Assembly: GCA_028681335.1 (NCBI GenBank)
Contig: JAQUIT010000002.1
Span: 124,001-188,000 of the forward strand
Direction: 5' to 3'
Length of the DNA: 64,000 nt
Source of the DNA: Desulfuromonadaceae bacterium
GTDB lineage: Bacteria > Desulfobacterota > Desulfuromonadia > Geobacterales > Pseudopelobacteraceae
Program-made: the position numbers and the translations under genes
Notes under the pieces: generated by a model
Seen by the model: the letters and a program-made list of their open reading frames with translations, nothing else
Databases searched by the model: none
What the model was told of the DNA's origin: nothing
Shown: in pieces, positions 30,521 through 62,528 of the stretch
How the letters are laid out: every line of letters starts with the position of its first letter
Numbering within the stretch: position 1 is the first letter of the stretch

Positions 30521-30608
30521 GGAAGGGTGGCCGAGTGGTTTAAGGCAGCGGTCTTGAAAACCGCCGAGTGTAACAGCTCCGTGAGTTCGAATCTCACCTC
30601 TTCCGCCA
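30521..30608 (+). tRNA. tRNA-Ser (anticodon UGA)
   Basis: 88 nt including an encoded CCA. Acceptor GGAAGGG pairs with CTCTTCC (one G-U), anticodon arm GCGGTCTTGAAAACCGC with TGA in the loop, long variable arm as in all tRNA-Ser, and the T-arm GTGAGTTCGAATCTCAC. The 3' part from 30556 is the attL core, so the present 3' half derives from, or is identical to, the island copy and the tRNA stays intact. The original downstream terminator is now at 62540. Confidence 0.97.
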
Positions 30609-30610
30609 TT
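30556..30610 (+). repeat. attL core (55-bp direct repeat)
   Basis: Starts GAAAACCGCCGAGTG in the tRNA anticodon arm and ends CTTCCGCCATT just beyond CCA. Identical over 55 bp to 62474-62528; the base on either side differs. Confidence 0.95.
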
Positions 30611-30695: not shown

Positions 30696-31979
30696 TTGTC
30701 ATTACCTACCCACCTCATCTGCTACAAGAGCCACTACTATTATCAGGCTAAAGTACCTGTAGACCTAAGAAAACACTTCTGCTGTACCTTCATCAAGAAA
30801 TCTCTTAAGACCACTGACCTGAGTGAAGCAAAAACAATGCTAGTCTCTATGGAATATAATGTCCACAGAGGTTTTACGTTGTTGAGAACAGGTATGTTAC
30901 CAGCTGATATTGTCAGACAGGTAGTAGAGGGAATAGTGCCAAGCAGACAAAAGGCTGATGTGGTAAGAGGCAAGCTGCTGTCTGATGTCGTTAAGCAGTA
31001 TGTGGCTGAGAAAGAGTCGGGCTGGACATACAAAACCAAGTTGGAGGTTGTTGGGTGTCTTCGTTTGATAGTGGATGTTGTCGGTAGCATGGAATTGAAG
31101 GAGATAACAAAGCAGACAGTGCTGGACTTCAGGGCCAAGCTGATGAAGTTGCCAGCCAATATGTACAAAATATATCCAGGCAAAACTATACAGGTGATAT
31201 TGAACATGTCTGATGTAGAGCCTATGAGTATCAATTCAGTCAATAAGCATATCATGAGATTAAATGCCCTGTTAAGTTACGCTGTCACGGAAGGTCTCGT
31301 CATCGTCAACTATGCACAGGGGATGATGATATCTGACAAACGTAGGACTGATGAACTGCGAAAGGTATACTCTCCTGAGGACTTGAAAGTTATCGTGGAC
31401 AATCTGCCGAGAGAGCAGGGGAGACCAGAAAGGTTCTGGATTCCTTTGATAGCTATGTATTCTGGTATGCGCTTGGATGAGGTGTGCCAGCTATATGTAG
31501 AGGACGTTCAGCAGCTAGATGGTGTGTGGTGCTTCAATATAAACGATGAGAAGGATAAGAAGGTTAAGTCAGCATCAAGCAAGAGGGTTGTGCCGGTTCA
31601 TAAAGTCCTGCTCACATGTGGGATTCTCGAATACGTAGGTACAGTTAGGTCTAGTGGAAACCAGAGGCTATGGGTGAATTTGTCTTGGCGTAAAGAGGAC
31701 GGATACGGAAATGCGATAGGTAACTGGTATCGCAGGTTCAATCGAGAACATGTCAGTAAAGATGAGGGTAAGGTGTTTCACAGCTTTCGCCATACGGTTA
31801 CTAACTCACTTAAGCAAGCTGGAGTGTCAGAGGCTGTAATTGCAGAGCTTGTTGGGCATTCTACGAGCGGATCTATGACTATGGGTAGGTATGGCAAGCG
31901 TTATCAACCTAAAGTGCTCCTGGAAGCATTGATGAAGCTCGACTATGGTATTAAGCCACCTGTGTCTGTACTAGAATAG
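30696..31979 (+). CDS. Tyrosine recombinase / integrase (left-end)
   Basis: Site-specific recombinase, probably responsible for insertion into tRNA-Ser. 427 aa from a TTG start (AAGGAG 9 nt upstream). Core-binding domain about residues 75-210; catalytic domain with R259 (YSGMRLDE), H362-x-x-R365 (HSFRH), H388 (VGHS) and nucleophile Y399 (GRYGKRY). The gene begins 86 bp after attL and has no visible promoter of its own. Because the tRNA terminator has been displaced, transcription from tRNA-Ser could read into it. Confidence 0.92.
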   Translation: MSLPTHLICYKSHYYYQAKVPVDLRKHFCCTFIKKSLKTTDLSEAKTMLVSMEYNVHRGFTLLRTGMLPADIVRQVVEGIVPSRQKADVVRGKLLSDVVKQYVAEKESGWTYKTKLEVVGCLRLIVDVVGSMELKEITKQTVLDFRAKLMKLPANMYKIYPGKTIQVILNMSDVEPMSINSVNKHIMRLNALLSYAVTEGLVIVNYAQGMMISDKRRTDELRKVYSPEDLKVIVDNLPREQGRPERFWIPLIAMYSGMRLDEVCQLYVEDVQQLDGVWCFNINDEKDKKVKSASSKRVVPVHKVLLTCGILEYVGTVRSSGNQRLWVNLSWRKEDGYGNAIGNWYRRFNREHVSKDEGKVFHSFRHTVTNSLKQAGVSEAVIAELVGHSTSGSMTMGRYGKRYQPKVLLEALMKLDYGIKPPVSVLE

Positions 31980-32307: not shown

Positions 32308-33336
32308 ATGAGTATTAAGGTTCACTCCATAGGATATGACGACGTAATTAAGAGCACTGTTCTGACTGGGGAGACAACATACAGGTACGCTTTGGAAAGT
32401 ATCTACCCATTAATCAATCGCTTTTCTGCACAAAGAAAACTCCAAAACCAGTCTTTTTATGACAGACTACGTAAAGATATCCTTAAAGGTTGCCTAATGC
32501 CACCTATCACTTTAGCATTAGTTGACGTAGGAAATCCTACAACAATTGATTTAAAAGAAGCATCCAGATATTCTAATGATAATATTAGTAAAGGCTATGT
32601 ATTAGATGGTATGCAGCGTCTTAACACGCTTTTTAGCATAAAAGACGAACAAGACTTCCCATATGAGAAGAGTCTGTATTTAAGCATTATAATATCATCC
32701 AATAAAGATATGCTTCTATACAGGATGATAACACTTAATAATGGTCAAAGGCCTATGACTCCAAGACATCAGATAGAAGTATTAACAGAAGAGTTGTTTG
32801 ACTTTGAATCGTTAGATATCGAAATACAGTCCGAAAAAGAACGGGGAGAAAAGGTAAAAAGAGGATCATTCAATCTATCAGATATATCCAAAGGTTATTT
32901 AGCTTTTTTTTCGGATAGCGTGCACAACGAAAACAATAAGATAATTAGTGAGAAAATGGATGAGATTATAGTTGGTAAAATTATGAATGCAGCTGTTGTT
33001 GAAGATGGACTACAGTTTCAGCAAGTACTAGAGCTAATAGATAAATTTTCCACTAGTGAAGTTGGTAAATCATGGCTGATGACACAAAACAATCTTATTG
33101 GCTTTTGTGTAGGTGTAAAGAAGTCATTTGATTTCTTAGGTGAATTGACCGCAACAGATTTTGGTGTTTATGCAAATAAATTTGAAGATGCTTTTAAAGG
33201 AATAAATGCAGCTAAAGTAAATCTTGGGAAATATAGACGCGAGTTGTCAAAGAAATATATTGAGAACTTATCAGACTTTAAGGATTTTGATGATATTGAA
33301 TTGTTAACTTATTTTTCTGATGAAACCGTTGGATAA
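32308..33336 (+). CDS. ParB/DGQHR-like protein, first gene of an unknown pair
   Basis: 342 aa, soluble, in very A+T-rich DNA. An N-terminal RLRKDILKGCLMPPITLAL is followed by GYVLDGMQRLNTLF (D100-G-M-Q-R104) and LNNGQRPMTPRHQIEVL (N145-G-Q-R148). This PPI-L / DG.QR / NxxQR order resembles the ParB-sulfiredoxin fold of DGQHR (DndB-like) and DUF262 (GmrS-like) proteins, families linked to DNA modification sensing or nucleotide-dependent nucleases. The remaining 190 residues are mostly helical. The next gene starts 5 bp downstream and looks HEPN-like. A defence role is inference. Confidence 0.5.
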   Translation: MSIKVHSIGYDDVIKSTVLTGETTYRYALESIYPLINRFSAQRKLQNQSFYDRLRKDILKGCLMPPITLALVDVGNPTTIDLKEASRYSNDNISKGYVLDGMQRLNTLFSIKDEQDFPYEKSLYLSIIISSNKDMLLYRMITLNNGQRPMTPRHQIEVLTEELFDFESLDIEIQSEKERGEKVKRGSFNLSDISKGYLAFFSDSVHNENNKIISEKMDEIIVGKIMNAAVVEDGLQFQQVLELIDKFSTSEVGKSWLMTQNNLIGFCVGVKKSFDFLGELTATDFGVYANKFEDAFKGINAAKVNLGKYRRELSKKYIENLSDFKDFDDIELLTYFSDETVG

Positions 33337-33341
33337 TTGAT

Positions 33342-34241
33342 ATGCGGACTATCAGTTACGAATTTTATGAACCTAATGCAACCACATTTACAAGTGCATC
33401 AGCTTTTCATATTAACGATAGTAGTAGTGAATTATCGCTATTATTTAGATTGATTTCAGGTACGTGCCTTATTTCTAATAGAAATTTAGAATTAGCAGTA
33501 GAATTAAATAAGAACTATTTTTATAGTGATTTCAGAAATAATGACGATAACGACTTAAGCTTCTTAGATAACTTCGATGAAAGTCTTAAACTTGATGATT
33601 ATGAGCAGTTTATAAATAAAAATAGACATAAAAACAGAAAGTTTTATAAACCGTTATTAAACGAAATAGCTGGTTGTATATATTATGAGGAGCTTGAGCG
33701 CCATACATCTGCATTTGTTCATTTATATAGGGCTTATGAGCATATGTCATACGCCTTTCCAATGATATATGCATCTAAAACGGATGATTACATCGGTACA
33801 TTTGAAAATCTTAGAAAATGGTTAACAAATTCAGAGTCAGATGGAAATGTTGGTGAGTTGAGATTTCATAAATCATTTATTACTACGCTATTTAAAGGCT
33901 CTCCAGAACTTTCAAGTACAATAGACATTCATATTACTGCGAAAGACGAGTTCAAAGAAAATATATTTAATGGCTTAACACAAAAAGTCCTATGTTGGAA
34001 TAATTCAACTCAATTTACAACATCAACAGTGTCACCTGATAAAATAAGTGTCAGTTTTGTTGAGTTCCACAGTTTTATTGTAAATTTAAGAAACAGATAC
34101 TTTCATTATTCTAATGCAAGAAGAGATAATATCGGACTTGATGATATCATTGAATCAGATTTATTGTTTTCAATGGTAAATAAGGCTTCAATAAATTTTA
34201 TCGCAACAATTTTTCACGGAGTTATAAGACAACACATGTAA
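33342..34241 (+). CDS. HEPN-like protein, second gene of an unknown pair
   Basis: 299 aa, soluble, all-helical in appearance. Near the C terminus is LRNRYFHYSNARR: R250-N251-x-x-x-H255 fits the R-(polar)-x3-H catalytic motif of HEPN RNases, whose helices normally precede and follow as here. An earlier segment (ELERHTSAFVHLYRAYEHMS) looks like another HEPN-style helix with conserved aromatic residues. It starts 5 bp after the DGQHR-like gene, so the two are co-transcribed. HEPN proteins are frequent toxin effectors in antiphage systems; that role here is inferred from one motif. Confidence 0.45.
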   Translation: MRTISYEFYEPNATTFTSASAFHINDSSSELSLLFRLISGTCLISNRNLELAVELNKNYFYSDFRNNDDNDLSFLDNFDESLKLDDYEQFINKNRHKNRKFYKPLLNEIAGCIYYEELERHTSAFVHLYRAYEHMSYAFPMIYASKTDDYIGTFENLRKWLTNSESDGNVGELRFHKSFITTLFKGSPELSSTIDIHITAKDEFKENIFNGLTQKVLCWNNSTQFTTSTVSPDKISVSFVEFHSFIVNLRNRYFHYSNARRDNIGLDDIIESDLLFSMVNKASINFIATIFHGVIRQHM

Positions 34242-34690: not shown

Positions 34691-35932
34691 ATGAATTATG
34701 TAGAGTCCATAAGTAAGCAGACCATGGTGCCAGCAGGTGATGCTATTGACATGCTATCTCAGATACTTCTTTCTGCACATCATATGAACTTGGGAGACAA
34801 GCCAGAGGAGATAAAACAAGACAAGATTAAATATGTGAGGAATCAAATTACCAGACTTTACAAGGCTGGCAAGGTCAATAAGGGTACAATTAAATATTAT
34901 GATTCTTTACACCAATACTCAGATGCTTCTGGTTATTATTCAGATGGCTCATGTGACTTCTTCGAAGACGATGCAAGATTTCGCATGGATATGAAGTTGA
35001 GTACAGTCAATATTAAGCAGCTTGCCAAGGAGATTGTTCTTGAGTTAGAGGACACAGGTAATTCTGTACCTGCTGACCTGATGATATTGTTGGGCGACAA
35101 TAACCATCAACCTGTGGTGGTGTCTAAGTCTGTTATTGCACCTATTATACAAGTTGTCAGCAGCAATGATACTAATGTTGCCGCACCGGCTGTAGAGAAA
35201 GAGGATGCTGTCACTATTGCACCAGAAGCAGTCGTAATACCTTCAGTAGTTGATGAGGATATCAAGGCTGGGACAGCACCAACAGATCACAAGTATTGTT
35301 TCATAAAACATGGACTGGGCTGGAATATTCAGTTTGGTGACATAGAGCTTATTGGTGTCAATCATTCTGTTGGTATGGACTACATAAAGATATTACTTCA
35401 AAAAAGGTATGATGAAATTAGTGTATTCGATCTACAGGCAATGCTTAACCCAGACTATATTCAAAGCAGCTTAGAGTCCAGTTTCAATGATCATATGGCT
35501 GATGAGGAAGATGATTCAGAATCAACTGAAGACACAGATGCTCAAAAAAGGATTTGGAATCGTTTGTCTGATGAAGAACGGGCAATAGCAAATGAGCTTT
35601 ACCAACAACTCAAAGAATACAAAGCCGACCTTGCAGCGGCGAAATTGTATAAAGACATAGTCGAAGAAAAACGACTCACCGAACTGAAAAATATGCTGGA
35701 AGACGATCTATATGCAATGTTGAATTCTAGAACAGATGACCCTGTTTTGGATAAAAATAGAAAAAAAATATACAAAAATATTGAAGATGCTAGAAAAAAC
35801 ATAAAAATAGCTGAAATTGCCAAGGGTTATGAAGACACCCCCACATACAATTATCTTAAAAAATACATTAATACTGGTAGCTCTTGTAAATACAATCCTC
35901 TTGTCGATGATTCTATCCAATGGATATTATAG
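34691..35932 (+). CDS. Hypothetical protein with C-terminal coiled coil
   Basis: 413 aa. N-terminal helical part, a low-complexity Val/Ala/Pro linker (about 135-200), then a compact segment WNIQFGDIELIGVNHSVGMD followed by YIKILLQKRYDEISVFDLQA. This resembles the short winged-helix-like element seen in some regulatory ATPase and TPR proteins. A highly charged coiled coil (about 280-380) follows. No enzyme motif. It stands alone between a decayed lipoprotein gene and a leader hairpin. Function unknown. Confidence 0.6.
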   Translation: MNYVESISKQTMVPAGDAIDMLSQILLSAHHMNLGDKPEEIKQDKIKYVRNQITRLYKAGKVNKGTIKYYDSLHQYSDASGYYSDGSCDFFEDDARFRMDMKLSTVNIKQLAKEIVLELEDTGNSVPADLMILLGDNNHQPVVVSKSVIAPIIQVVSSNDTNVAAPAVEKEDAVTIAPEAVVIPSVVDEDIKAGTAPTDHKYCFIKHGLGWNIQFGDIELIGVNHSVGMDYIKILLQKRYDEISVFDLQAMLNPDYIQSSLESSFNDHMADEEDDSESTEDTDAQKRIWNRLSDEERAIANELYQQLKEYKADLAAAKLYKDIVEEKRLTELKNMLEDDLYAMLNSRTDDPVLDKNRKKIYKNIEDARKNIKIAEIAKGYEDTPTYNYLKKYINTGSSCKYNPLVDDSIQWIL

Positions 35933-36591: not shown

Positions 36592-37035
36592 ATGCGGATA
36601 GAAACAAAATTATCAGAAGACCTGACTCGCTTTGAATACGTAGATATGACCGAAAGTGAGAAGTTAATAGTTGAGGATATGAAAGTGCTTATATCTAATA
36701 TATTCGATTGCCGCTTAGATACGATTATTGTAAATCAACAATTTAAAGAGCTGACTCAAGAAGTGGCAGATATTATCAATTCAATTAGATATGAAATTGA
36801 CTACATACAATTAGACGTTAAGCCTGATCCCGCAGATCTTGAAGAAATCATGGCTCTTATTGACATTGAGAATAAACGTAGTGAAGATATATGGTATGTG
36901 AGATTCGAGACATACCTCTATTGCGAAAAGGCTAAGGCCGCTGGTATCAATGTATCTAAGTCAGAAGTTGATGCACTGATGATAGCTTACTTCGAGCCCG
37001 AGATAGTAGAAGCTTCTCTGGTTCCCGAAGGTTAA
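36592..37035 (+). CDS. Hypothetical acidic protein upstream of the helicase
   Basis: 147 aa, acidic, mostly helical (TQEVADIINSIRYEIDYIQL, DLEEIMALIDIENKRSEDIW). It starts after GAGGAG (8-nt spacing). No membrane segment or cysteine motif. It lies 101 bp before the SF3 helicase, with a GGGGAG/CTCCCC hairpin between them. Position suggests a replication accessory or copy-control role, but nothing in the sequence proves it. Confidence 0.6.
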   Translation: MRIETKLSEDLTRFEYVDMTESEKLIVEDMKVLISNIFDCRLDTIIVNQQFKELTQEVADIINSIRYEIDYIQLDVKPDPADLEEIMALIDIENKRSEDIWYVRFETYLYCEKAKAAGINVSKSEVDALMIAYFEPEIVEASLVPEG

Positions 37036-38658: not shown

Positions 38659-38683
38659 AGCCCCCTATCCCAAGGGGGCTTTT
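38659..38683 (+). terminator. Terminator after the SF3 helicase
   Basis: AGCCCCC (38659-38665), 8-nt loop, GGGGGCT (38674-38680), then TTT. Confidence 0.85.
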
Positions 38684-38717: not shown

Positions 38718-38824
38718 TGAGCCATCTGAGGTAAATGAGGCATTTTTTTGAGAAAGTTAACCAGTAAAAAATTTACACTGAACTGTTTTTCAGAAAATTT
38801 GGCTCATATGGTTCATTTGCCTCA
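38718..38824. repeat. Inverted pair of triple 9-bp iterons, candidate replication origin
   Basis: Plus strand 38718-38744: TGAGCCATC, TGAGGTAAA, TGAGGCATT in exact 9-bp phase. Minus strand 38824-38798: TGAGGCAAA, TGAACCATA, TGAGCCAAA, also in exact phase. The two arrays point toward each other across 53 bp of A+T-rich DNA. Consensus TGAGSYAWW. This layout next to an SF3 helicase resembles iteron or crr/ori elements of P4-like and plasmid replicons. Origin function is inference. Confidence 0.6.
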
Positions 38825-38913
38825 CAAAAATAGAGCTTAACACTATAACCAGCTATAATATCAAAGCTATATAGCACACTGAATATGGTTGTATCCTCTT
38901 ATAGGGATACACC

Positions 38914-39081
38914 ATGTTCTTGTATGATGCTCTATTGACAGGTTCATATTACAGAGCAGATATCACTCTACAAACACCTTCAGACCCAATAACTATATAC
39001 GCTCACAACATATGGGATGTTGTATCGCTACTGTTCCTCAAAGACCTTATCCTAATTGCCAACTCAGGAAAGCAGCTATAA
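38914..39081 (+). CDS. Possible small ORF in the 1-kb gap after the helicase
   Basis: 55-aa ORF (starts MFLYDALLTGSYYRADITLQ) with AGGG 7 nt upstream, shorter than the ORF-track cut-off. It overlaps, on the other strand, an alternative ORF at 39003-39278 with an AGGGTGG site. Only one, or neither, is real. The rest of 38825-39624 shows no other feature I can support. Confidence 0.25.
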   Translation: MFLYDALLTGSYYRADITLQTPSDPITIYAHNIWDVVSLLFLKDLILIANSGKQL

Positions 39082-39624
39082 CTCTCATCACCTTCAGAGT
39101 CAGCACTCAATACATGTCCAAATAGTATGTTTTCCATACTACCGGATAATATTATAACCCACTGTACGGGTGTATAACCCACTTGAGAGGCAATTTCTGC
39201 ACCCAGTACATCATTGCTAGCGCTAACAGACAGAGAGCCTGTAAAACCACCCTTGCCGGCAATCATCAAGAGCCCCATAAAACCACCCTATAAGCTCAAT
39301 AACTCTAGCAGTATTATGTTGCAATGACACTTTCTGTCCAAACAGTATAATAACCTCCAAGATCAGGAGAAAGCCCATGATATATATTTGCGGCACATTG
39401 CCAAAGCCCGATTAGAATGATCTTTTACCAGAACAGAAGCAGAGGTTTGGTTTCCTGGTTCACCAGCTCAGAAAGAACGATTGCACAATCCCTGATGCAT
39501 AGAAGAGAGTCTGCAGTTAGTTGTGGAGCGAAGAGATGCCTTTCGACGGATGGATATTAATTGACTGCTAATGTTTGTGTGATATAAACAGGCTGCGAAT
39601 TAGCTGTCATGAGGTGAAAACAAA

Positions 39625-46815: not shown

Positions 46816-49374
46816 ATGTCTGCACAAAAGCTCACACTATCCAAGCTCGAATCCCTCCTCCTCAAAGCCTGTGACATTCTCCGTGGCAAGATGGATGCTT
46901 CGGAATACAAGGAATATATCTTCGGCATGCTCTTCCTCAAGCGGATGAGTGACCAGTTTGAAGAGGATCTCCAACTCCTCAAGAAAGAGCTGGTGCAAAA
47001 GGGTATGGCTGCTGATCTCATTGAGCGACAGCTGAACAACCCGACCAAGTACAGCTTTTATATTCCTGAAGATGCTCGTTGGGACAAGCTGCGTCACCTG
47101 AAGCAGAATGTGGGTACTGGCCTTAACAAGGCTCTTGCTGCTATTGAGGATGCGAACCCGAACACTCTTGAGGATGTACTCAAGACCATCAACTTCAACC
47201 GCAAGGTTGGTAAGAACACGATGGCTGATGACACCCTGGTTCGGTTTGTCCAGCATTTCGAGGATGTACCTCTTCGCAATGAAGACTTCGAGTTCCCTGA
47301 CCTTCTAGGAGCTGCTTACGAGTATCTGATTAAATACTTTGCTGACAGTGCCGGTAAGAAGGGTGGTGAGTTCTATACACCCTCTGAGGTGGTGCGAACA
47401 TTGGTACAACTGATAGAGCCTCAGGAGGGGATGGAGATATATGACCCTACAGTAGGCTCAGGCGGTATGCTGATCCAGTCACAGCTGTATGTCGCTGAAG
47501 TCGGCGGCAACTCCCGTAACCTGTCTCTCTTCGGTCAGGAAGATAACGGTGGTACCTGGTCCATCTGCAAGATGAATATGATCCTTCATGGGATCAATTC
47601 CGCAGATATCAAGCAGGGAGATACCCTCAAAGACCCGCAGCACCTGGACGACAAGAATCAAGGTGAACTCAGACGCTTTGATCGTGTCATAGCCAATCCT
47701 CCCTTCTCACAGAACTACGCACGTAAAGAGATGAAGTTTGACACCCGCTTTCATACCTTTATGCCTGAGTCAGGTAAGAAGGCCGACCTGATGTTTGTGC
47801 AGCATATGATCTCTGTATTGAAGGCTGATGGCAAGCTGGCAGTGGTTATGCCGCATGGTGTGTTGTTTCGTGGTGGTGAAGAGAAGACTGCTCGTAAGAA
47901 GATCATCGGCATGGGGATACTGGAAGCTGTCATCGGCTTACCATCAGGTCTCTTCTATGGTACCGGTATTCCTGCCTGTGTGCTGGTTATCAATAAGCAG
48001 GGTGCCAGTGAACGCAAGAGTGTCATCTTTATCAATGCAGATCGTGAGTACAAGGAAGGAAAGAACCAGAACCAACTACGTCCTGAAGATATCGAGAAGA
48101 TTACCTATGTCTACCGCAACAAGGTCGATGTAGAGAAATACTCCCGTAACGTACCCATCACAGAGCTAGAGGAAGAAGAGTACAACCTCAATATCAGGCG
48201 GTATGTCGATAACTCTCCTCCACCAGAGCCGCATGATGTCAGAGCACACTTGAATGGCGGTATCCCTGTTGCTGAGATCAATAACCTCCAGAGTTACTTT
48301 GCTAACTTTAACGGTATCAAGGTAGAGCTCTTTGCTGATCGTGATGCAACCTACAGTGACTTTACCGATGCAGTCACCAAGAAAGAGCAGATCAAGCAAC
48401 TAATAGAATCACATACCGGAGTTATGTCCAAACAGCAGACCTATGAAGAAGCACTCCTTGACTGGTGGAATAGCAATGTCAACCAGCTTGAAACCCTCCC
48501 AGAGTCCCAGAACGTCTTTGCAGTCCGTAGGCACTTCCTTCAGAGCATTGTCGATGTCCTCTTGCCGCATAACATGCTCGACATCCATAAAGTCCAGGGT
48601 GCCTGTGCCAGCTACATGGATCGTATTGCCAGTGATCTCAAGTCCGTTGCCGCCAGTGGTTGGGGTGCTGAACTGATTCCTGAAGAAGACATCCTTGCTT
48701 CCCAGTTCCCAGAGGTACTAGTGCAGCTGGAGCAGGACAAGAGTCGCATCCTTGAGCTGGAAGGTCTCTTTGCTTCGGTTGATACCGATGATGAAGCTGA
48801 GGGAGAAGCGGAAGAGTCAGAGAGTGGTGTTCTGCCTAAGGCTTTGGTGAAATCGTATAAAGAGAACATGAAGGCACTTAAGGGAGAATTGAAGAACTGC
48901 ACTGCTGAGCTGAATGCACTTAAGAAGGATGTCAAGAGAGCCAAGGATTCAGGTTTTACAGATGATCTTGCCCAGATGCAGATTAAGGAGAACCAGCTGG
49001 TCAAACAGATAGCAGGTATTACTCGTGAGGTAGATGAGATAGAAACCAAGCTGGAGACACATACCGAGCTTGAGAGAGAGCTGAAGGAACTTAAGAGGAA
49101 TATCCGCGAGTCTGAGAAACGTAAGGATGAACTGGTAGCCAAGGCGAGAGAGAAGATCACTGAGCAGGAAGCCAAAGAGCTGATCCTTGAGAGGTTCAAG
49201 CAGTTACTACTAGCTGAGAATCATGAATATCTGAGGCAGTATCGCCAGGTGTTTGTTGCCAAGGTTGAGAACCTGTGGAGCAAGTATTCTGTGACAGTGA
49301 AGGAGATACTGGCTGAGCGGGATCAAGAGGCTGAGCTATTGAACCAATTCCTAGTGGAGTTGGGGTATGAGTAA
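46816..49374 (+). CDS. hsdM: Type I restriction-modification DNA methyltransferase subunit
   Basis: Adenine methyltransferase of a type I system. 852 aa. N-terminal HsdM helical domain ([20 protein letters not shown]), SAM-binding motif [11 protein letters not shown] from D210, catalytic motif [10 protein letters not shown] from N294. Much longer than the usual 490-530 aa: the C-terminal 300 residues form an extension with an acidic segment near 655-665 and a long coiled coil (about 680-800). It overlaps hsdS by 8 bp. Works as M2S for modification and with HsdR for cleavage. Confidence 0.94.
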
Positions 49375-50695
49375 CAATTTGATGAAGCTGATGGGTGGTA
49401 GCACTATCCCTATACCTGATGGCTGGCGAGCTACTTGTGCTGCTAATTTTATTATTGAATCAATGTTTGGAGCGTCTATTAAGCCCGATGATTTTCGAGA
49501 AAACGGCGTTGAGGTCATTCCTAAAAAGGCCGTAACTGACAAATGCATATATGCACTTTCAGATAACGACTTAGCATATGTTACTGAAGAATTTAGCCTC
49601 AAATCACCCAGATCAGTTATTAATGGCGATTGTCTGATCACTTCACTTCGAGACCTCGTTCCTACTGGCCCCTCTATAGGTAGGTGCGTAAAAGTTTGGG
49701 ATGCCAAAAAAAGAGTGTTGGCCCAAGGTGTCTATGGCTTCAAATTTAATGGTGATCTTGATGAGACCTTGTTTGCCTACATAAGTAATAATGATTATTT
49801 CAGGCGCCAGGTGAGAGCTATTATGGTAGGCAGCACACAGATTCATGCACGTGCAAATGAATATTATTCACTACCAATTATTTTGCCGCCACACAATCAA
49901 CAACACAAGATAGCCAAGATCCTCTCCACCGTAGACAACCTCATAGAAAAGACCCAAGCCCTGATCGACAAGTACCAGTCCATCAAGCAGGGGATGATGC
50001 ATGACCTTTTCACTCGTGGAGTAGATGGACACGGACAGCTACGCCCAAGTTATGAGGATGCTCTTCATCTTTATAAAGAGTCTGAGCTGGGGTGGATACC
50101 TAAGGAGTGGGAGGTTTGTGCTCTTGAGTATAAGCTAGACAAAATCATTGATTACAGAGGCAAAACACCTGTAAAGACAGAGTCGGGACTACCTTTGATT
50201 ACAGCAAAGAATGTTAGAAGTGGTTACATTGATGAAGAACCACGAGAATATATTGCTGAAAGCAGCTACGACCGTTGGATGACTCGTGGGATACCCAACG
50301 TTGGAGACATATTATTTACCACGGAGGCACCTCTAGGAAATGTGGCAAAAGTCCCAAGCTATAAGATGGCACTTGCTCAACGATTGCTGACATTGATTCC
50401 TGCTGAAGCTGAGCTAACTCAAGATTTCCTGTATTGGTTGCTTTTGTGGGATGGCACATTTATCAGGTTGGAGCAGAGATCATCTGGGTCAACAGTTTTA
50501 GGTATCAAACAGTCTGTATTCAGGAAAATGGTATTTCCTTTTCCTCCTGTTGAGGAGCAGAAGATTATAGCTCATTCTCTTAATGGCGTTAATAGAAGGG
50601 TCAATTCTGAACAAGCAAGCTTAAGAAAATATTCAATTTCAAAGAGTGGTCTCATGCAAGACCTACTCACTGGTCAAGTAAGGGTTTCAGTTTAA
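49367..50695 (+). CDS. hsdS: Type I restriction-modification specificity subunit
   Basis: Recognises the split DNA target. 442 aa with two target-recognition domains: the first about residues 1-165, followed by the central conserved helix [20 protein letters not shown]; the second about 235-400 (TKEWEV-like start [14 protein letters not shown]), followed by [18 protein letters not shown] and [14 protein letters not shown]. Full length. A second, decayed hsdS tail lies at 54876. The target sequence cannot be predicted. Confidence 0.92.
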
Positions 50696-50706
50696 GAGGC
50701 AAGCGA

Positions 50707-50928
50707 ATGAAGAATGTGAATAGCTTTCACGCACCATTGAATGATGGTGATACGGATAAGCAGACTGTTGGCTGTAGGCATACTAACCCTGATATTTGCG
50801 CTAAGAATGCAATGCCGAACGTATGTGCTTTTGTCAGAAGTGATGGAGTCTGCATGGCACCTCCAGCTTCATGGAAGAAGCAGTACTTTAAGTTGGGAGA
50901 GCAGTCTAGTAATCCAATGGTGGTGTAA
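50707..50928 (+). CDS. Small Cys-containing ORF between hsdS and hsdR
   Basis: 73 aa, four cysteines (GCRHTNPDICAKNAMPNVCA, then DGVCMAPP) that might bind a metal. It begins 11 bp after hsdS and its stop touches the hsdR start, so it is translated within the R-M operon. No family recognised. Could modulate assembly of HsdR, or be unrelated cargo. Confidence 0.6.
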   Translation: MKNVNSFHAPLNDGDTDKQTVGCRHTNPDICAKNAMPNVCAFVRSDGVCMAPPASWKKQYFKLGEQSSNPMVV

Positions 50929-53900
50929 ATGTCTGAATACAAATTTGTCGAAAAGCCATTCCTTGACCAGCTAAGCGCACTCGGCTGGATAATCATTGAC
51001 CAAGGTGAAGGTATCCCTGGTGATCCTGCTATCAGTCTGCGTACTGACTTCCGTGAGGTAACTCTCAAAGAGATCTTCAAGGATAGCGTGCGTGCAATCA
51101 ACACCCTTGACGATGGTAGCGAGTGGTTGACCAACAAACAACTTGATGAGCTACATGAAGAGCTGACCAGTCATGCAGGTAAGGGACTGCTGGAAGCGAA
51201 TAAAGATGTCCTGAGCCTTCTATATAAAGCACAAGTTGATGCTAATGAGGTGACTGGTGAAGAGTATCCGGTTGTCAACATCATCGACTTCACCAATCCT
51301 GAAGCGAATACCTTTCACGCGATCAACCAGTTCCGCATAGATACACCAGGCAAAGTTAAGGATCACATCCGTCCTGATGTTGTCCTCTTCGTCAATGGCT
51401 TACCGCTAGTAGTTGTCGAGTGCAAAGACAAGAACATCTACACATCCAATCCTATCTATGAAGCCATTACTCAGCTCAGACGCTACAGCGATCAACGTGA
51501 AGAGACCATAGAGGCAGGACTCAGAGAAGGTGAGGAACGGCTCTTTCACTGTAACCAAATGATGATTGCCACCACAGGAGATGAAGCCAAGTTTGGCACC
51601 ATCACCTCAACCAGCGATTACTTCTACGGCTGGAAGACCATCTACCCTACTAAGTATCAGGACTACATAAAGCCCTTAGGAGTTGAGCGTCCGCAAGAGA
51701 TCTTGATTCAAGGGATGCTCCCCAAAGATACACTCCTTGATATAGTCCGTAACTTCATGCTTTACATGGATGCCGGTGACAAGCAGATCAAGGTTACCTG
51801 TCGCTATCAGCAATACAGAGCTGTCCTTAAGACGATGGAGAAGCTGCGTACTGGTAATACCCCTATAGAGCGTTCAGGTGTCATCTGGCACACGCAGGGG
51901 AGTGGCAAGTCTCTTACCATGGTCTTTCTGGTGCGTAAGATGCGACAGAGCCATGATCTGAAAGAGTACAAGATCCTGATGGTCAATGACCGTGTGGACC
52001 TTGAAGATCAACTGACCAAGACCGCAGCTCTCACAGGTGAAAAGCCCTATGTGATCAGTAACTCGAATCAGCTTAAGAAAGATCTGGCTAACGATTCATC
52101 AAACCTCAATATGGTCATGGTACATAAGTTCAAAGAGGCTGAGACGATGTTGCCTGACTATGTGGCGGAAGCTCTTGGTGGTTATGGAGATAAGCAGATA
52201 CCGAAGAAGGAGCTCTTCGGAGTAGTCAATAAGTCTGAGAAGGTGCTGTTACTCATTGACGAAGCTCACAGAACCCAGTCAAGTGATCTAGGGGATAACC
52301 TCTTTGATGCCTTCCCTAATGCTGCACGTATCGCCTTTACAGGTACTCCTCTGATTACGGATCGTCACAAGAAGAAAACCTGGGAACGCTTTGGTGGGTA
52401 CATCGACAAGTACAAGCTACAGGATGCTGTTGATGATGGAGCTACTATCCAGATTCTCTATGAGGGGAAGACTGCTGATACAGCAATCAATGAAAAGCAC
52501 CAGTTTGACACCAAGTTTGAAGACCTCTTTCAGAATCTAAGTGACGAGCAGATCCTCAAGATCAAGAAGAAGTACGGCTGCACTGGTGACATTCTTGATG
52601 CTCCCAAACGGATTGAAGCCATTGCTAACGATATGGTGCAACACTATGTCGAGCAGATCCTCCCCAATGGATTTAAGGCACAGGTTGTCTGTAACTCCAA
52701 GATTGCCGCCATCTACTATCAAACCTATATCGACCAGGCTATTAAGGATCGTCTCACAAGGGAGCAAGGGAAAGAGCATCCTGATAGTGAGCTGATCAAG
52801 CAGCTTCAGTTCATCAAGACTGCGGTTGTTCTATCATCAGATAATGTCAACGAAGATGCACGAGTCACAAAGGCACGTAAACTCTCCAAGGAGATGAATG
52901 CCATTGATAACTTCAAGAAGAAGTTCGACTATGAAAAGCCTGATACCGGTATTGCCTTTATGATCGTCTGTGACATGCTCCTTACCGGCTTTGATGCTCC
53001 GATAGAGCAGGTCATGTATATCGACAAGAAGGTTAAAGAGCATAACCTCCTGCAAACCATCGCCAGAGTCAACAGGGTTGCCAAGGACAAGAGCAGAGGA
53101 TTCATTGTTGACTACATCGGCCTAGCCAATCATCTCAAGTATGCCCTCTCCATCTATTCAGAAGATGATCAGGCTGACATCCTCGGGCAGCTTAAGAACA
53201 TCAACACCGAAATACCTATCCTCGAAGAACGCTACCGGAGACTCTTGCACCTCTTCACGGATAATGATGTCAGCACCATCGAAGCCTTTGTCACTCAGCA
53301 GATAAAAGACCCTGCACAGGAATACCAGATCTTGGAGCAGGCGGTTGACCTGATGGAGGATATCAAGCTCAGAGCCAACTTTGAGGTCTATCTGAAGAAG
53401 TTCTACCAGAGTATGGATATCATTCTCCCTGCCAGCTCAGCCAATCCCTATAAGGTACCGGCCTATCGCTTTGGGTACATCCTCAACCGAGTCAAAGAAC
53501 GCTACAAAGATGCTTCGATAGATATTGCTGGTGCAGGGGCCAAGGTGCGTAAGCTAATCGGAGAGCATCTTATTAGCCTGGGGATCAATCCGAAGATACC
53601 GCCAGTGGAGCTGATGTCAGACAAGTTCATCAGTGAACTGGAGAAGAACAAGAGCTCCAAAGCCAAAGCCAGTGAAATGGAACACGCCATCCGTAAGCAC
53701 TGCAAGGTTCACTGGGATGAAGATCCTGCACTCTATGGGCAACTTAGCGAGAAGCTGGAGCTACTGATCAAGAAGCATAAAGAGGACTGGGATCAACTCT
53801 CTAGTGTTTTGACCGGGCTGCGTGATGAAGTTAAGGAAGGGCGCATGCAGAGTGATAATGGTCTCAGCATCAAGGAGGCACCCTTCTATGATTTGATTAT

Positions 53901-54165
53901 TCAGATTGCCTTTGGCAAGAAGCCGGTTAATAGTGAACAGGCAGCAATGATCAGGCAGATGGTCACAGAAGCCTTTGCACTGATCAAGGAGCGCATCAGC
54001 ATCATTAACTTTTGGAAGAACGGTTACGAGATCGACCGCATGAAGGGCGAACTCTCCGACCTGTTACTAATGACCAACATCGACGAGATTATCCACGCAG
54101 AAGAGCAGCTGGTAACAGATATCACCTCACTTGCTAAGGCGCGTCACAAGGACATTCTCTCCTGA
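50929..54165 (+). CDS. hsdR: Type I restriction endonuclease subunit
   Basis: ATP-dependent translocase and nuclease. 1078 aa. N-terminal PD-(D/E)XK nuclease: D150 (RPDVVLFVNG) and E164-C-K166 (VVVECKDK). SF2 helicase: Walker A TQGSGKS with K327, DEAH box 444-447 (LLIDEAHRTQ), motif III FTGTPL, motif VI QTIARVNRV. Helical C-terminal domain for binding the methylase. All motifs are intact, so the system is probably active. A metallopeptidase gene starts in its stop codon. Confidence 0.95.
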   Translation: MSEYKFVEKPFLDQLSALGWIIIDQGEGIPGDPAISLRTDFREVTLKEIFKDSVRAINTLDDGSEWLTNKQLDELHEELTSHAGKGLLEANKDVLSLLYKAQVDANEVTGEEYPVVNIIDFTNPEANTFHAINQFRIDTPGKVKDHIRPDVVLFVNGLPLVVVECKDKNIYTSNPIYEAITQLRRYSDQREETIEAGLREGEERLFHCNQMMIATTGDEAKFGTITSTSDYFYGWKTIYPTKYQDYIKPLGVERPQEILIQGMLPKDTLLDIVRNFMLYMDAGDKQIKVTCRYQQYRAVLKTMEKLRTGNTPIERSGVIWHTQGSGKSLTMVFLVRKMRQSHDLKEYKILMVNDRVDLEDQLTKTAALTGEKPYVISNSNQLKKDLANDSSNLNMVMVHKFKEAETMLPDYVAEALGGYGDKQIPKKELFGVVNKSEKVLLLIDEAHRTQSSDLGDNLFDAFPNAARIAFTGTPLITDRHKKKTWERFGGYIDKYKLQDAVDDGATIQILYEGKTADTAINEKHQFDTKFEDLFQNLSDEQILKIKKKYGCTGDILDAPKRIEAIANDMVQHYVEQILPNGFKAQVVCNSKIAAIYYQTYIDQAIKDRLTREQGKEHPDSELIKQLQFIKTAVVLSSDNVNEDARVTKARKLSKEMNAIDNFKKKFDYEKPDTGIAFMIVCDMLLTGFDAPIEQVMYIDKKVKEHNLLQTIARVNRVAKDKSRGFIVDYIGLANHLKYALSIYSEDDQADILGQLKNINTEIPILEERYRRLLHLFTDNDVSTIEAFVTQQIKDPAQEYQILEQAVDLMEDIKLRANFEVYLKKFYQSMDIILPASSANPYKVPAYRFGYILNRVKERYKDASIDIAGAGAKVRKLIGEHLISLGINPKIPPVELMSDKFISELEKNKSSKAKASEMEHAIRKHCKVHWDEDPALYGQLSEKLELLIKKHKEDWDQLSSVLTGLRDEVKEGRMQSDNGLSIKEAPFYDLIIQIAFGKKPVNSEQAAMIRQMVTEAFALIKERISIINFWKNGYEIDRMKGELSDLLLMTNIDEIIHAEEQLVTDITSLAKARHKDILS

Positions 54166-57039: not shown

Positions 57040-57912
57040 ATGTGTAAAACGTATGATGTAATCAATCAGAGGATCATGGAGCTATTGGAGCAAGGGACTA
57101 TCCCCTGGAAGAAGCCCTGGAATGCACAGAGCAATTACCCAAAGAACATTATCAGTGGCAAGAAGTATCAAGGCGTCAATGTGTTCATGCTTGCATGTAG
57201 TGAGTTCAGCAGCCCTTACTGGATGACCTTCAAGCAGTGCCAGGATAAAGGTGGACATGTCATCAAGGGTAGTAAGTCCACACCTGTAATCTTCTGGAAA
57301 TGGCTGGATAGGAAAGATGCACCTACAGAGGGTGACAATAGCAGCAATGGCAAGATACCTATGCTCAGGTTCTATTCAGTATTCAACATAGAGCAGACCG
57401 AAGGCATAACACCTCCGACAGCAGAAGAGACACACAACATATTCGATCCGCTCACCAGAGCTGAAGAGATTATAGCTGCAATGCCTATGAAGCCAGAGAT
57501 CAAGCATGGTGGCGGCAGAGCATACTACTCACCCACCCTTGACTATGTGCAGTTAAGCCACCAGCACACCTTCGATACCATAGAGCATTACTACAATACG
57601 TTATTTCACGAGCTATCACATGCTACAGGCCATTCTAACAGGCTTGGCAGGAAAGGTGTAACAGAGACCAGTTACTTTGGAAGTCATGAGTACAGCAAGG
57701 AAGAGCTTGTTGCAGAGATGGGGGCTGCATTCCTATGTGGTCATGCTGGCATTGAGAATACTACCATTGAGAACAGTGCAGCATATATTCAGGGATGGTT
57801 GAAAGCCTTGAAGAACGACAAGACTCTGTTGGTGCATGCAGCAGCTCAAGCACAAAAGGCCAGCGATTATGTGCTTAATGTTAAGCCTGATGTTGTGGAG
57901 GAAGTGGGTTAG
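57040..57912 (+). CDS. ArdC-type antirestriction protein
   Basis: 290 aa. N-terminal ssDNA-binding DUF1738 domain (IPWKKPWN near residue 22, KKYQGVNVFML, YWMTFKQCQDKGGHVIKGSK) and a C-terminal zinc metalloprotease-like domain with H190-E-L-S-H194 (FHELSHATGH) and EELVAEMGAAFLCG. ArdC proteins of conjugative plasmids protect incoming single-stranded DNA from restriction. Presence on an element that also encodes type I restriction suggests use on entry into new hosts. Name ardC not applied because function is by homology only. Confidence 0.85.
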   Translation: MCKTYDVINQRIMELLEQGTIPWKKPWNAQSNYPKNIISGKKYQGVNVFMLACSEFSSPYWMTFKQCQDKGGHVIKGSKSTPVIFWKWLDRKDAPTEGDNSSNGKIPMLRFYSVFNIEQTEGITPPTAEETHNIFDPLTRAEEIIAAMPMKPEIKHGGGRAYYSPTLDYVQLSHQHTFDTIEHYYNTLFHELSHATGHSNRLGRKGVTETSYFGSHEYSKEELVAEMGAAFLCGHAGIENTTIENSAAYIQGWLKALKNDKTLLVHAAAQAQKASDYVLNVKPDVVEEVG

Positions 57913-61348: not shown

Positions 61349-62341
61349 ATGAGCATTCACAAAAGAGGCAAGCAGGGTATCTACTATTTCAATTTCACTA
61401 TTAACGGTAAGAAGTATTTCAGGTCTACAGGGACAACCAGCAAGCGAGAAGCCAAGCAGGTAGAGCATACTGAGCGCCAAAGGCTCATGAAGGAAGTAAA
61501 GCTATCACCCCAGGAGAAAGCAGCCAGGACAACTCTTAAGGATGCGATAGAGATTACGTACAACTCGAAGTGGAAGAACAACAAGGATGTAACCGGCACA
61601 TACAGGAAAGCATTACGTTTACTAGAGCTGATAGGAAACATACCTGTAGGCCAGATAACCGAAGAGACAGTTGATAACCTCATAAAGGCCCTTGAAGCCA
61701 CCAAGATAGAGGGAGCAACTATCAATCGCTATCAGGCTACCCTCAAGACCATCCTCAAGCAGATGAAACAGCCAGCAGAGATATTCACACCATTTAAAGA
61801 GAGCAAAGGCCGCATTAGGGTAGTATCCAAGGACGAAGAGACAGCCTTGCTCAGATTGCTGAGAGCCACAGAGAAGCCTGTTTACCTTGAGACAGCTGAT
61901 CTCGTGGAATGCTTACTGGATACAGGGTGTAGGCTCTCGGAGATGCTGGACCTGCTATTCAAGGATATTGATTTTCAGAACAACCAGATACGGATATGGA
62001 TTAACAAGGGTGATCGTCCCAGAAGCATACCAATGACCACCAGAGTCAAATCTATCCTACTGGCAAGAAAGCAGTCAGATAAGCCTTTTACAATTACGAA
62101 GTATCAGGCTGATAAGTGTTGGGCATGGGTAAGGAAGCAGATGGGGCTGGAGGGTGATAGTGATTACGTTATTCATAGTTGCAGACATACTTGTGCGAGT
62201 AGGCTGGTAAATGCAGGGGTGGACTTGTACGTGGTTAAGGAGTGGCTTGGGCATAGTACAATTAAGATAACAGAAAGGTATGCTCACCTGGACCCAGGCA
62301 AATTAGTAACCGCAATGGGGCTATTAGAAGGCTTGAAGTGA
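61349..62341 (+). CDS. Tyrosine recombinase / integrase (right-end)
   Basis: 330 aa site-specific recombinase with an N-terminal Arm-DNA-binding-like segment (MSIHKRGKQGIYYFNFTING, KREAKQVEHTERQRL). Core-binding domain about 70-160; catalytic residues R195 (TGCRLSEM), H276-x-x-R279 (HSCRH), H302 (LGHS), Y311 (ERYAHL). Different from the left-end enzyme in length and sequence. It ends 132 bp before attR. Either enzyme could act at this tRNA; it may instead mark a second, fused element. Confidence 0.93.
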   Translation: MSIHKRGKQGIYYFNFTINGKKYFRSTGTTSKREAKQVEHTERQRLMKEVKLSPQEKAARTTLKDAIEITYNSKWKNNKDVTGTYRKALRLLELIGNIPVGQITEETVDNLIKALEATKIEGATINRYQATLKTILKQMKQPAEIFTPFKESKGRIRVVSKDEETALLRLLRATEKPVYLETADLVECLLDTGCRLSEMLDLLFKDIDFQNNQIRIWINKGDRPRSIPMTTRVKSILLARKQSDKPFTITKYQADKCWAWVRKQMGLEGDSDYVIHSCRHTCASRLVNAGVDLYVVKEWLGHSTIKITERYAHLDPGKLVTAMGLLEGLK

Positions 62342-62473: not shown

Positions 62474-62528
62474 GAAAACCGCCGAGTGTAACAGCTCCGT
62501 GAGTTCGAATCTCACCTCTTCCGCCATT
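62474..62528 (+). repeat. attR core (55-bp direct repeat)
   Basis: Exact copy of the tRNA-Ser 3' part (30556-30610). The sequence before it does not resemble the tRNA 5' half, so no second functional tRNA exists here. Confidence 0.95.

Follow-up and report, generated by a model that had tools for sequence, protein, structure and literature searches.

Two short arrays of 9-bp repeats converge on an A+T-rich gap just past a helicase gene in an integrated island, and the question they raise is whether they form the replication origin of that island, so that it may replicate after excision, as an earlier note on this DNA proposed. We searched for the arrays again in the window (the whole 64-kb stretch of DNA analysed here) and found the six iterons exactly as described, with the same words, strands and 9-bp register, as well as the claimed A+T-rich gap between them (Table 1). 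Four positions of the repeat (T1, G2, A3 and A7) are invariant across all six units, and two more (G4 and C6) are present in five of the six. The first array starts 102 bp past the helicase stop codon. It had been placed 35 bp after the helicase terminator; a terminator-like hairpin is indeed present there, but, given the span of this hairpin, the array starts 37 bp past the stem.

Table 1. Features of the island, with positions in the 64-kb window.
Feature	Position	Strand	Description
attL	30556..30610	+	3' part of tRNA-Ser gene, 55-bp direct repeat
Tyrosine integrase	30696..31979	+	DUF6538 arm domain; adjoins attL; both sister islands begin with this type
413-aa protein	34691..35932	+	28% identical to equivalent gene of sister island L025
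Small protein, 129 aa	36111..36500	+	sister islands L024 and L025 both have a homologue 5' of the helicase
147-aa protein	36592..37035	+	between 129-aa gene and helicase; no confident family
D5-type SF3 helicase, 492 aa	37137..38615	+	D5_N 55-198, DUF5906 227-338, Pox_D5 415-462
Terminator-like hairpin	38659..38680	+	3' of helicase
Left iteron array	38718..38744	+	TGAGCCATC TGAGGTAAA TGAGGCATT, three in-phase 9-bp units
Spacer between arrays	38745..38797	.	53 bp, 75% A+T; presumed melting region
Right iteron array	38798..38824	-	TGAGGCAAA TGAACCATA TGAGCCAAA read on -, 9-bp register
Second tyrosine integrase	61349..62341	+	adjoins attR
attR	62474..62528	+	exact 55-bp direct repeat of attL

A word-free scan of the window for 3+3 inverted 9-bp units ranked the array site first, with a score of 44 out of 54; the runner-up elsewhere in the window scored 39, and the maxima of 40 Markov simulations (14.5 kb each) were 37-41. 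Within the 300 bp 3' of the helicase gene, period 9 gave z = 6.6, a value that none of 300 exact dinucleotide shuffles reached, and periods 7, 8, 10, 11 and 12 were null. We searched 141 genomes of the order for TGAGSYAWN triplets with at most one mismatch; only the island site has them on both strands, and one other genome has a match on one strand. In most relatives the units are less degenerate than in the island; hence, a strict word scan (7-mer, one mismatch) scores 0 at the island site, and we therefore used period-based scores.

The gene 5' of the arrays encodes a full-length helicase that keeps its Walker A motif (GPGGNNGKS) and other invariant residues. We found a D5_N match (E 2e-23) along with matches to PHROG primase families, and the protein matches the C-terminal parts of phage primase-helicases and has no fused primase part. 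Its predicted structure resembles the hexameric D5/E5 and ASFV PrimPol helicases, including a head-to-head double hexamer, and a winged helix (order H-E-H-H-E-E) is predicted at its C-terminal end, at about residues 413-480. No primase, fused or separate, was recognised among the island ORFs and proteins scanned, and no scanned ORF matched a Rep family (Rep_3/RepA type); the structure model of the 413-aa neighbour has a pLDDT of 33, too low to be read for a primase fold. The earlier remark that the helicase lacks a primase domain was thus correct, but a helicase without a fused primase is ordinary for the kind (Sfi21, SCCmec Cch2). Since the SaPI primase is reported to be non-essential (PMC7581432), it is not unusual that no separate primase was found in the island either.

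Relatives of the helicase were found with a three-row profile; the single sequence, scanned against the genome and viral contigs, gave none. Two sister islands, one in another Geobacteraceae genome (L025) and one in another family of the same order (L024), have a common order of DUF6538 integrase, 129-aa homologue and helicase, the last at 39-40% identity. In both, convergent arrays start 47-65 bp past the helicase stop codon and enclose spacers of 49-52 bp with 82-85% A+T. The array words, TGAAGGC-type units in L025 and TGTGAAGG-type units in L024, both differ from TGAGSCA. The comparison with related islands, proposed at the outset as a search for TGAGSYAWW arrays, yielded convergent arrays at the same place but in other words. 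Initiators that each recognise an iteron of their own would give such differences, which argue against a shared ancestral sequence that was kept for another reason.

Relatives with the same helicase and no array had been named as what would speak against an origin, and two relatives at about 40% identity (L065 and L066) have no array at z of at least 4. Both, however, lie in other gene contexts, with a PolB-type polymerase gene 3' of the helicase and, in L066, a TOPRIM-like primase gene between the two, as read from the translations.

We then extended the comparison to D5-type helicase loci oriented with tblastn. Across 47 loci, phage and plasmid controls among them, a scan for 2+2 inverted units gave downstream mean z values of 0.24, 0.50, 2.03, 3.36 and 1.34 for periods 6-10, respectively, and the upstream means were flat, from -0.16 to 0.52 (0.5 at period 9). 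At periods 8-10, z was at least 4 downstream in 23 of the 40 GTDB/viral loci versus 2 of 40 upstream; the other 17 had no array at this threshold. Similarly, a second scan for tandem convergent words was positive downstream in 28/48 loci, upstream in 5/48 and in 11/576 shuffles, all of these survey figures being effect sizes rather than exact probabilities because some dependence remains among the loci and 14 shuffles for each are few. The spacers in 26 array-positive loci measure 18-93 bp (median 55.5 bp) and have a median A+T of 72%. The survey suggests a rule for finding origins: look for repeats of 8-10 bp (most often 9) that converge within about 200 bp past the stop codon of a D5-type helicase gene.

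Several known origins lie in this position. In the records of phages A2, phiadh and Sfi21, the origin is annotated directly 3' of the helicase gene, so a D5-type helicase is followed at once by a non-coding origin, as proposed for the island; in Sfi21, 8-bp repeats also converge on an A+T-rich spacer. These three differ from the island in their phage context, in their primase, which is separate (Sfi21) or fused (A2, phiadh), and in their repeat words and spacers, and the repeats of A2 and phiadh give no score in the phased scan.

Among mobile islands, the SaPI origin lies directly downstream of rep (PMC6092414, PMC7581432). In E. coli PICIs, the origin always comprises an AT-rich region with an iteron set on either side, and a plasmid can be maintained by the pri-rep-ori segment of such an island (PMC6092414). 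The island resembles the rep-ori of Gram-negative PICIs and SaPIs (EcCICFT073; SaPI5-type Rep) in its two iteron sets, AT-rich middle, rep-ori unit and integrase-borne state (PMC6092414, PMC7581432). It differs in its iteron word (TGAGSCAWA) and in that no primase gene was found; it also does not fit the PICI phage satellite type, as neither alpA/str-type regulators nor packaging, packaging-interference or cos functions were identified among the ORFs scanned, and its size of about 32 kb, with type I restriction-modification and ArdC, departs from the small size of PICIs. SCCmec Cch2 is likewise a D5_N-type helicase without a fused primase, and it uses its C-terminal DNA-binding domain to bind iterons that immediately follow its own gene (PMC7581432). 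Unlike in the island, the Cch2 putative origin has only three direct AAGTG iterons that are bound, no convergent second array is reported, and the primase is CCPol-MP. By its sequence, the island falls in the class of SF3/D5 helicases with a downstream iteron origin, having a D5-type gene, close downstream iterons and two sets that flank an AT-rich region. It does not fit the classical iteron plasmids (RepA/TrfA/Pi type), which have a Rep_3/RepA-type initiator, DnaA boxes and loading of the host DnaB: its initiator candidate is an SF3 helicase, and the ORFs scanned gave no Rep family match.

The sister-island arrays, the enrichment downstream only, and the origins of A2, phiadh, Sfi21 and pRN1 support the proposal that the segment is the helicase's cis site for replication, and at the level of sequence comparison we regard an origin reading as well supported. 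Very probably, the segment is the replication origin of the island, where the C-terminal winged helix of the D5/SF3 helicase would recognise the 9-bp units, each convergent array would load one hexamer, and the two hexamers, paired head to head, would melt the A+T-rich spacer for bidirectional replication. The integrase would excise the island from its tRNA-Ser site, and priming and synthesis of the excised circle would fall to the host DnaG primase and polymerase. This probable origin is well preserved, belongs to a known type and is new for this island family. The helicase gene and about 110 bp would make a compact candidate replicon for Geobacteraceae/Geobacterales islands with cargo (type I restriction-modification, a Dazbog-like gene), and such islands may multiply after excision by this route. 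Two doubts weigh most: this copy may no longer work, and the site could be a crr-like accessory site instead of the start.

The first of these doubts corresponds to a relic, an island that once replicated and no longer does, as its degenerate iterons and missing primase might indicate. We consider this unlikely. Its units do fit the consensus less well than the units of relatives, and no primase was found in the ORFs scanned, but the period-9 register is intact in all six units, the helicase ORF is full length with its invariant residues kept, the two 55-bp att repeats are identical and both integrase ORFs are intact. These att repeats bound an island of about 31.9 kb that is A+T-richer, and from the helicase motifs, the integrases and the exact repeats we infer that the island may replicate after excision.

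The second doubt comes from P4, with which the arrays had been compared from the start. That parallel stands in part: convergent type-1 repeat pairs lie directly past alpha and its terminator, so repeats do adjoin the replication gene, but this P4 array is crr and the annotated ori lies about 4.7 kb away. P4 also differs from the island in having its module in two copies and an alpha with a fused primase. With a helicase that has no primase part and with one array locus in the genome, the island does not fit the P4-type satellites, in which alpha carries a fused primase and ori is separate from crr, and SaPI/PICI, Sfi21 and pRN1 are better parallels than P4. By the P4 precedent, the island arrays might bind the helicase but serve as an accessory (crr-like) or copy-control/incompatibility site, with the start elsewhere in the island. 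This is improbable: in A2, phiadh, Sfi21 and pRN1, annotation or mapping puts the origin at the very site next to the gene, and no second TGAGSYAWN triplet array was found elsewhere in the genome.

Not all downstream origins have been read as iterons. The minimal origin of pRN1 was mapped downstream of orf904 and interpreted by its authors as a stem-loop (PMC4234260); by analogy, the island element would act by folding into a large stem-loop, as DNA or as RNA. The island arms can fold (z = -2.27), with 4 of 200 shuffles as stable. However, in the longest complementary pairing (38727-38743 with 38808-38824, 82%), the outer left unit has no partner, so the units are matched out of register, which fits repeated words better than a selected stem. 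In many relatives, pRN1 among them, each arm also contains direct 9-bp repeats. Hence, a hairpin reading of the array is disfavoured, and we give a stem-loop function very little chance. The pRN1 origin arms (L090:5083-5190) carry TTATGTCCA TAGTGTCCA on both sides, inverted at a 64-bp gap, that is, two 9-bp direct repeats per arm, which suggests that the pRN1 'stem' consists of iterons rather than a simple hairpin. Like the island, pRN1 has a spacer (about 64 bp) between inverted 9-bp repeat pairs directly past its replication gene, here one for a primase-SF3-winged-helix protein; unlike the island, it is an archaeal plasmid with a fused primase and was published as a stem-loop and not as iterons. 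The survey thus invites a re-reading of the pRN1 origin as iterons.

Taken more broadly, the chances seem to us even that convergent iterons of about 9 bp around an A+T-rich spacer of about 55 bp are a general signature by which D5-type SF3 initiators recognise their origins, whether in archaeal plasmids, phages or bacterial islands. In that case the pRN1 stem-loop would be made up of 9-bp iterons in two inverted pairs, and primase-less versions such as that of the island would recruit the host DnaG. That the arrays instead have no part in replication and are bound by the integrase, an excisionase or some other regulator is scarcely credible: phage attachment sites also have short direct arm repeats (annotated in P4), but the first integrase and attL are 7-8 kb away from the array, the second integrase and attR are over 22 kb away, and across the family the association is with the D5 helicase gene.

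Between its two integrases, the island encodes a DzbA-like protein, the replication segment, nucleases, an HU protein, type I restriction-modification, ArdC and RadC. The tyrosine integrases at the two att ends differ from each other, and the island is possibly a composite of two elements. The DzbA-like protein (PADLOC E 4e-46, GmrSD_N-type) is followed directly by a 299-aa protein (32308-34241), and from their sequences the two genes are a probable Dazbog-like defence pair, placed between the integrase and the replication segment. The type I restriction-modification set is complete (HsdM, HsdS and HsdR, 46816-54165), and the ArdC antirestriction protein is encoded at 57040-57912. An Rfam scan of the island found tRNA only.

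In all three islands, about 0.8-1.4 kb 3' of the origin is without convincing genes (window 38830-39620, L025:15220-16640 and L024:12160-13050); these unusually long gene-poor stretches are unrelated in sequence as far as seen, and the one in the window has no Rfam match. Another locus (L091:5243-5271), whose helicase has no downstream array, carries three 9-bp direct units, GTGAAGGAT GTGAGGGGT GTGAAGGAT, 5' of the helicase gene and at the end of an integrase gene. The L024 island has a reverse transcriptase gene (RVT_1, L024:6980-8770) between its integrase and helicase; the C-terminal part of the product looks TOPRIM-like by eye, and it is possible that this is a retron-type defence gene.
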